Positions 29,046 through 35,509 of a stretch of DNA of 64,000 nt are shown piece by piece. The translations under genes and the position numbers were made by a program. Origin of the DNA: Pontimonas sp. (GTDB lineage: Bacteria; Actinomycetota; Actinomycetes; Actinomycetales; Microbacteriaceae). The first letter of the stretch is position 1. Every line of letters starts with the position of its first letter. Under the pieces are notes generated by a model. It was not told where the DNA came from and did not search any database. It saw only the letters and a program-made list of their open reading frames with translations. The stretch spans positions 1-64,000 of the forward strand of contig JAOHDU010000002.1 of assembly GCA_028096805.1 (NCBI GenBank), in the 5' to 3' direction.

Positions 29046-31271
<2,226 letters not shown>

Positions 31272-34300: not shown

Positions 34301-35509
34301 ATGCAAACCGCGCCTCTGGATATCTCACCTGATGCTCTCACCATCATCGAGCGCGATTTTGCGGGGCTGTATTCGGGTGAACTCGGGCTGAGCTCTCTTG
34401 CCGGAGGACAGAGCGCAGCTGACGCTGCGCTCGCAACACTTGATGTCACCGGGTACGCCTCCCGCCGGTCGCAGGTTTTTCCCGACGCGTCACGCGGGGC
34501 GACCGTGCTTTCTCCGTACATTCGCCACAACATTCTGACTCTGGACTCCGTCTGGAAACGCGTGGGGGACGCTCCGCCAGGCGATCGTCAGAAGTTTCGG
34601 GATGAATTGCTGTGGCAGGAGTATGCGCGACACCTCTATGCCCGGGTGGGAGTCCGCCTTTTTGAAAACCTGAGATTCGAGGCCCCATGGGACGGCCCCG
34701 GTGACGGTTGGGCCGGCGACATGCTCTGTGTGGAGGAGGTGACCTCCGAGCTTGAGCGCGATGGTTGGTTGGTGAATCAGACCCGCATGTGGCTGGCATC
34801 TCACTGGAGTGTTCGCAACGGTGCGGGCTGGATCCACGGCCAAGAGCGGATGCATCGTGAACTCATCGATGGATCCCGAGCAGCAAACCTGCTCGGTTGG
34901 CAGTGGACGGTAGGGGCGGGGACAGGGAAACCTTACGGTTTTGCCCGGTGGCAGGTCGAGAAAAGAGCGCCCGGTTTGTGTCAGCGGTGTCCGCTGGCCA
35001 CAAACTGCCCGATTCAAGAGTTTCCGGACACAGAGCCCCCACCCCCGGTACCAAACGAGCCTCTTCTGAATGGCGATCCTGATGTGGGGCGAACGACAGG
35101 GCCTGTGACTCCGGTTCGCTCACGCACCCCCGACCGCGTATTGCTCACAATTGACTCTCTCGGGGACGAGGATCCCGCGTTGGCGGCACACCCCGCTTTG
35201 CCAGCGGTGTTTGTGTTCAATGCTCCCGCGCTCGAAAAGCTTCAGCTCAGCGCGCGGCGGCTCGGTTTCTACCTTCAGACGCTGCAAGATTTGGCACACC
35301 GTCGCGACGTAGTAGTTCTTTTCGGGGATCCCTACGAGTACGCCTCACACCACGATGTTGCGGTTACGTATGCGCCGGTGCCGTCTTTTCAGAAATTCAC
35401 CCGGCTTGCAGAAATTTATCCCTACCCGTGGTTGCGGCCACCGCACAGTGGCTCCGTTCGGAGTTTTTCATCGTGGCGCAAAAAGTTGAGCCCACGCGGA
35501 TCGGGTTAG
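34301..35509 (+). CDS. Photolyase/cryptochrome-like FAD-binding protein with apparent permuted domain order
   Basis: Residues about 1-245: photolyase FAD-domain motifs (GGQSAADAAL, LSPYIRHNILTL, LLWQEYARHL, WLVNQTRMWLASHWSVRNG, DGSRAANLLGWQWTVGAGTG); C-terminus resembles the photolyase alpha/beta domain (AVFVFNAPALEKLQLSARRLGFYLQTLQDL...VVVLFGDPYEY). Confidence 0.8.
   Translation: MQTAPLDISPDALTIIERDFAGLYSGELGLSSLAGGQSAADAALATLDVTGYASRRSQVFPDASRGATVLSPYIRHNILTLDSVWKRVGDAPPGDRQKFRDELLWQEYARHLYARVGVRLFENLRFEAPWDGPGDGWAGDMLCVEEVTSELERDGWLVNQTRMWLASHWSVRNGAGWIHGQERMHRELIDGSRAANLLGWQWTVGAGTGKPYGFARWQVEKRAPGLCQRCPLATNCPIQEFPDTEPPPPVPNEPLLNGDPDVGRTTGPVTPVRSRTPDRVLLTIDSLGDEDPALAAHPALPAVFVFNAPALEKLQLSARRLGFYLQTLQDLAHRRDVVVLFGDPYEYASHHDVAVTYAPVPSFQKFTRLAEIYPYPWLRPPHSGSVRSFSSWRKKLSPRGSG

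Follow-up and report, generated by a model that had tools for sequence, protein, structure and literature searches.

The window, that is, the whole stretch of 64,000 nucleotides from Pontimonas sp. analysed here, contains a gene which a preliminary description, made from the sequence alone, took for a photolyase-like protein with its FAD domain first and a segment resembling the alpha/beta domain behind it. The questions raised by this locus are whether the two parts belong to one protein, whether the second part is indeed a photolyase domain, and what a photolyase of such an order might do in the cell.

The open reading frame and its two domains

The gene is an uninterrupted open reading frame (ORF) of 402 codons on the + strand, running from an ATG at 34301 to a stop at 35509. 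Its features are as follows.

34301..35509, + strand: whole gene, reversed-order photolyase-like protein of 402 aa plus stop (ORF reading; orthologs)
34301..35035, + strand: residues 1-245, helical FAD-binding (catalytic) domain with the Fe-S cysteine loop (Pfam FAD_binding_7; PDB photolyase matches; AlphaFold2 helices)
34604..34615, + strand: E102..W105 (in DELLWQEY), lesion-contact E/W pair, invariant in 67 relatives (alignment)
34727..34729, + strand: Cys143, first predicted [4Fe-4S] ligand (invariance; spacing)
34775..34789, + strand: NQTRM (residues 159-163), CPD-type motif, NRxRM in class I and HHIxRL in FeS-BCP (6-4) enzymes (alignment)
34868..34906, + strand: DGSRAANLLGWQW (residues 190-202), flavin-contact motif including N196 and the inner electron-transfer Trp, W200 (alignment)
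34979..35008, + strand: C227-x2-C230-x5-C236, the other three predicted [4Fe-4S] ligands (invariance; spacing; weak WhiB3 Fe-S match)
35036..35122, + strand: residues 246-274, variable linker (alignment; AlphaFold2)
35123..35485, + strand: residues 275-395, shortened alpha/beta (antenna-like) domain with five strands (AlphaFold2; Foldseek; hhalign; Deinococcus proteins as a bridge)

An intact gene with 97% identity to that of the window is present in another genome (locus L003), and third codon positions hold most of the substitutions between orthologs in both halves of the gene; against locus L005, the values for the first, second and third codon positions are 0.20/0.10/0.56 for the FAD part and 0.20/0.13/0.60 for the C-terminal part. 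In addition, a FAD domain followed by a conserved C-terminus is found in every full-length relative aligned (67 sequences). Therefore, the gene is neither a chance ORF nor two genes nor an assembly fusion, in accordance with the initial reading of one continuous frame instead of two adjacent genes; a frameshifted pair is likewise ruled out, since nearly all relatives have a single ORF.

The FAD domain, whose signature had been placed in the first ~245 residues, is readily recognized there. FAD_binding_7 of Pfam matches residues 149-209 with 30.7 bits, above the curated cut-off, PDB photolyases match residues 36-212, and the top Foldseek matches in the PDB are without exception photolyases or cryptochromes. 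The AlphaFold2 model, built on the alignment of 67 sequences, has a mean pLDDT of 92.1 and a pTM of 0.92.

The last 142 residues match no Pfam family, and the C-terminal part searched alone gave no match in Pfam or NCBIfam. Its resemblance to an alpha/beta domain is supported by five lines of evidence which agree with one another. The AlphaFold2 model contains, placed with high confidence, a Rossmann-like domain of five strands (279-283, 302-307, 337-342, 353-356 and 371-373) alternating with helices, and the domain modelled alone gives the same fold. When this lone domain is searched with Foldseek, class II photolyases come first among the PDB entries (probability 0.91-0.96, E 0.06), and the leading BFVD entries are poxviral, the photolyase of fowlpox and M127L of Myxoma (probability 0.91, E 0.03); with all E values at least 0.03, these matches are weak but specific. 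In hhalign, the C-terminal domain and the canonical antenna domains, taken from up to 18 photolyases of Actinobacteria, align in register from strand 1 onwards, VLLTIDSLGDEDPAL of the former with IVWLRNDLRLGDNPAL of the latter, and the score of 30.2 exceeds those of 300 column shuffles (mean 12.9, maximum 25.2). Moreover, a canonical photolyase profile, cut and rejoined with its domains reversed, matches the family profile with a score of 152 (E 1.7e-20) as against 142 (E 9.4e-19) in native order, and aligns in one stretch of 229 columns across both domains (residues 66-350). Finally, two Deinococcus proteins (L152 and L153) have PF00875 downstream of FAD_binding_7 with E values of 7e-4 and 1e-3, significant yet under the curated cut-off of Pfam; L152 can be aligned with the window protein in order through both halves (334 columns, 30% identity, E 1e-22). 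When the C-terminal part of L152 is compared with the profile of the family's C-terminal domain, the match has a probability of 96% (E 1.4e-9). The C-terminal domain is thus supported as a photolyase alpha/beta domain, and neither of the two outcomes named beforehand as speaking against the swap, an unrelated C-terminus or a missing Rossmann-like domain, was obtained. As to the term "swapped (circularly permuted) domain order", the swap is borne out by the profiles, the model and the Deinococcus proteins, while nothing points to a circular permutation inside a domain, so that "swapped domain order" alone is preferable.

The active site and the predicted iron-sulfur cysteines

The residues E274, W277, N341, M345, W359, N378 and W382 of the E. 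coli photolyase presumably correspond to E102, W105, N159, M163, W177, N196 and W200 of the window protein, and E274/W277 are taken here to be the lesion-contact residues to which E102/W105 are equivalent. E102, W105, N159, M163, N196 and W200 align with class I and not with the His-His motif of FeS-BCPs, and the reversed clade has DELLWQEY and NQTRM where FeS-BCPs have xGWREY and HHIxRL. The outer Trp, which we take to be W306 in E. coli numbering, is not conserved in the reversed clade, and two flavin-contact residues of class I are substituted throughout it, Arg by Q106 and the usual Asp of the flavin-contact motif by S192. As judged from the aligned residues, the active site is of the CPD type and not of the His-His (6-4) type of FeS-BCPs.

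C143, C227, C230 and C236 are the only invariant cysteines in the 67 aligned sequences, and they are spaced 84 or 83/3/6 in each of 80 loci (the best 80 of the 377 stretches in genome_contigs described below). They align with the four cysteines of actinobacterial FeS-BCPs, in which the last gap is longer. Phr4 of the cyanobacterium RS9916 has C169, C254, C257 and C263, that is, 85/3/6 (PMC9426592). Since four invariant cysteines are spaced as in cyanobacterial Phr4, the reversed actinobacterial proteins are likely to hold a [4Fe-4S] cluster. Fe-S cysteines by themselves should not be taken as a sign of (6-4) activity.

Distribution, phylogeny and genomic neighbourhood

Full-length relatives with the same order, a search for which had been proposed at the outset, occur in Microbacteriaceae, in other families of the order and across Actinomycetota. 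The genome_contigs search gave 377 confirmed stretches of relatives, the best 80 of which include Aquiluna, Rhodoluna, MAGs labelled Nanopelagicales, Cryobacterium and Frigoribacterium. A relative is carried by 26 of 399 genomes in a sample of the phylum (E < 1e-100), 22 of 297 in a sample of the class, 30 of 297 in a sample of the order and 5 of 19 in the window's genus, the own genome being counted each time; the distribution in Actinomycetota is patchy, with about 7-10% of the sampled genomes. More distant relatives are Deinococcus plasmid proteins and NewPHL-like proteins of Ruegeria and Peteryoungia. No viral relative was found in IMG/VR, and four Listeria phage records matched in the FAD domain only. 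One same-genus genome has a pair of reversed photolyase genes, each with an open frame and separated by about 25 kb (L035 and L036, G005:C1:818378 and 843973). Contigs in two MAGs labelled Chloroflexi (L055 and L061) include a gene of 69% identity whose extended translation contains one stop; these contigs may be mis-binned actinobacterial DNA. A weak match in the own genome (G000:C12:67304-67525) is antisense to an intact pheT-like gene, which from its translation would encode phenylalanyl-tRNA synthetase beta, and is therefore a chance match.

In a FAD-domain tree of 42 rows, the reversed actinobacterial proteins form one long-stemmed group (support 98/99) apart from FeS-BCPs (100/100). In the best tree, a branch supported at 75/85 separates every FAD-first protein from the others; the alternative of placing the reversed clade beside class I was not rejected (p 0.30). 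From the tree, a common origin of all FAD-first proteins by a single domain swap seems plausible.

No conserved operon or neighbourhood of the reversed photolyase was found, and its nearest genes vary among loci. Those in the window are a divergent fatty-acid desaturase gene and an MFS transporter gene; a catalase-peroxidase gene (katG-like, PF00141 in two stretches, 29058-31271) lies a few genes upstream. In four Cryobacterium loci (L107, L110, L115 and L116), a bacteriorhodopsin-like gene (PF01036) precedes the photolyase gene on its strand at a distance of 50-250 bases, and in two others (L113 and L119) a rhodopsin gene is nearby on the other strand. Furthermore, seven freshwater or marine loci (L074, L084, L086, L091, L092, L093 and L102) have a convergent gene for an NAD(P)/amino-oxidase-like flavoprotein directly downstream, which in some loci overlaps the photolyase gene by a few bases. 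On a plasmid of Chondrinema litorale (NZ_CP111049.1, L155:1464-5526), a run of three genes encodes an SDR with DUF2867, a 362-aa FAD-first photolyase-like protein and a cryptochrome/photolyase family protein; the last of these groups with FeS-BCPs.

Probable function and relation to known systems

The window protein is best explained as a reversed-order, Fe-S-bearing photolyase of the Phr4/Phr5-Phr6 kind, a reading to which we give a probability of about 0.66. The N-terminal helical domain would bind FAD and contact the UV lesion, a [4Fe-4S] cluster would be held by cysteines 143, 227, 230 and 236, and the shortened C-terminal alpha/beta domain, in which an antenna dye may or may not persist, would pack on the FAD domain and close the flavin site. 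An electron would pass from photo-excited reduced FAD to the lesion; the active-site residues suggest cyclobutane pyrimidine dimers as the substrate, which might be repaired in single-stranded DNA, as by NewPHLs. The enzyme would act beside, not instead of, the class I photolyase and the PF04244 (PhrB/CryB-type) protein, both of which are encoded in the window's genome besides the reversed gene. An accessory role is consistent with the presence of a full-length canonical photolyase FAD domain in 12 of 12 genomes checked.

A link to light comes from Rhodoluna lacicola, which has three such genes, phrB, cryB and cpf2; CPF2 (rhola_00011000) shares its light-dark expression group with phrB, follows light-dark cycles and is listed as a putative light sensor (PMC8591293). 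In genome G028, the class I, PF04244 and reversed genes lie at 0.56, 0.93 and 0.77 of the contig, approximately where the locus-tag numbers of phrB, cryB and cpf2 would fall, so CPF2 is very probably the ortholog of the window protein, G028 itself being presumably R. lacicola from these positions. PMC8591293 does not mention a reversed order for CPF2, and the "uncharacterized CPF2" of Rhodoluna gains a probable identity. The expression group of CPF2 and the rhodopsin genes upstream in the four Cryobacterium loci agree with a light-driven enzyme; they would also suit a cryptochrome which regulates light-responsive genes in freshwater Actinobacteria and repairs nothing, as would the listing of CPF2 as a sensor. 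Such a sensor would not need the lesion-contact residues, which are invariant over 67 sequences, and no signalling partner recurs in the otherwise unconserved neighbourhood, so this explanation is given only a slim chance.

Well-characterised Fe-S members of the PhrB and CryB type either have (6-4) lesions as their target or belong to the cryptochromes, and the cluster might accordingly mark (6-4) activity, which the authors of the mBio 2022 paper favour for Phr4/5 and Phr6 (PMC9426592). In Synechococcus, loss of phr4 reduces the survival of UV-C by a factor of 20-30 and does not reduce that of UV-B, which is in favour of (6-4) repair; in E. coli, phr4/5 protects from UV-C but not from UV-B, with no significant difference between white light and dark (PMC9426592). 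Such protection is not like plain photoreactivation and speaks against our preferred explanation, as do the replacement of Arg and Asp by Q106 and S192 and the E values of the lone C-terminal domain in Foldseek. Repair of (6-4) lesions is nevertheless improbable for the window protein, because the His pair of FeS-BCPs is replaced by NQxRM, the CPD-type E/W pair is invariant, the clade stands outside FeS-BCPs in the tree and a PF04244 protein is already encoded in the own genome. Rather unlikely, too, is a NewPHL/SPL in the strict sense, with a FAD domain first, a C-terminal sealing domain and specificity for CPD in single-stranded DNA. The order is the same, the RMW motif is shared, the insertion that follows the WQW motif in class I is lacking, and the best tree separates the FAD-first proteins from the others; however, that grouping is not strongly supported, and the two NewPHL-like proteins compared have neither the four cysteines nor a PF00875 match in the C-terminal part.

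The reversed-order, Fe-S-bearing photolyase remains the preferred explanation. To our knowledge, no reversed-order photolyase combining a [4Fe-4S] cluster with a CPD-type active site has been characterised. It is tentatively possible that these proteins constitute a distinct class with this combination, serving a lesion or a form of DNA left unrepaired by the cell's own class I and PhrB enzymes or having a partly light-independent role, as hinted by the phr4/5 data (PMC9426592). The architecture, on whose earlier description the preliminary reading took no position, is not new in kind, since NewPHLs (PMC13274461) and Phr4/5 and Phr6 (PMC9426592) were already known. No description of the actinobacterial branch as reversed was found in the open-access papers searched, where absence is not proof; what appears new is this branch, its spread and the active-site argument, drawn from sequence comparison, which would link an Fe-S cluster to CPD-type chemistry. 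Cryobacterium, Frigoribacterium and Rhodoluna offer tractable relatives for studying the roles of the cluster and the relocated domain.

Compared with known systems, class I CPD photolyases share the active-site and flavin motifs of the FAD domain and have a homologous alpha/beta domain, but their antenna domain is N-terminal and they are without Fe-S cysteines. FeS-BCPs (PhrB/CryB) have four Fe-S cysteines at aligned positions but differ in canonical order, the His-His site, the longer last Cys gap and the PF04244 (DPRP) N-terminal domain, which Pfam does not find in the window protein. The Deinococcus proteins annotated as "FAD-binding domain-containing protein" (WP_151845379 and WP_124875266; L152 and L153) have FAD_binding_7 and then DNA_photolyase in one chain and four cysteines at 85/3/7, with 30% identity through both halves; they differ in length (457 aa), in their deep separate branch, in the DGD motif, which is kept, and in HNHxRM instead of VNQTRM. 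L152, L153 and L157 are reversed photolyases on Deinococcus megaplasmids, two of them with both domains in swapped order by Pfam. NewPHL/short photolyase-like proteins (SPL, Phr7, SePhrC), reportedly described by Emmerich in 2020 and Xu in 2021, resemble the window protein in their CPD-type active site and RMW motif. Their topology is also inverted (PMC13274461); the window protein has this order, a C-terminal domain recognisable as photolyase alpha/beta, and the four cysteines. Closest in design are Phr4/Phr5 (split) and Phr6 (fused) of marine Synechococcus and Cyanobium, which have Fe-S cysteines and, like the window protein, the FAD domain first and the photolyase alpha/beta domain last (PMC9426592, mBio 2022). 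The cysteine spacing of Phr4 is nearly identical to that of the window family (85/3/6 versus 84/3/6), and kinship is suggested by architecture and cysteine spacing. The cyanobacterial proteins are often split by a frameshift, whereas the reversed architecture reported for picocyanobacteria is common, fused in one ORF, in Actinobacteria of freshwater, marine and cold environments.
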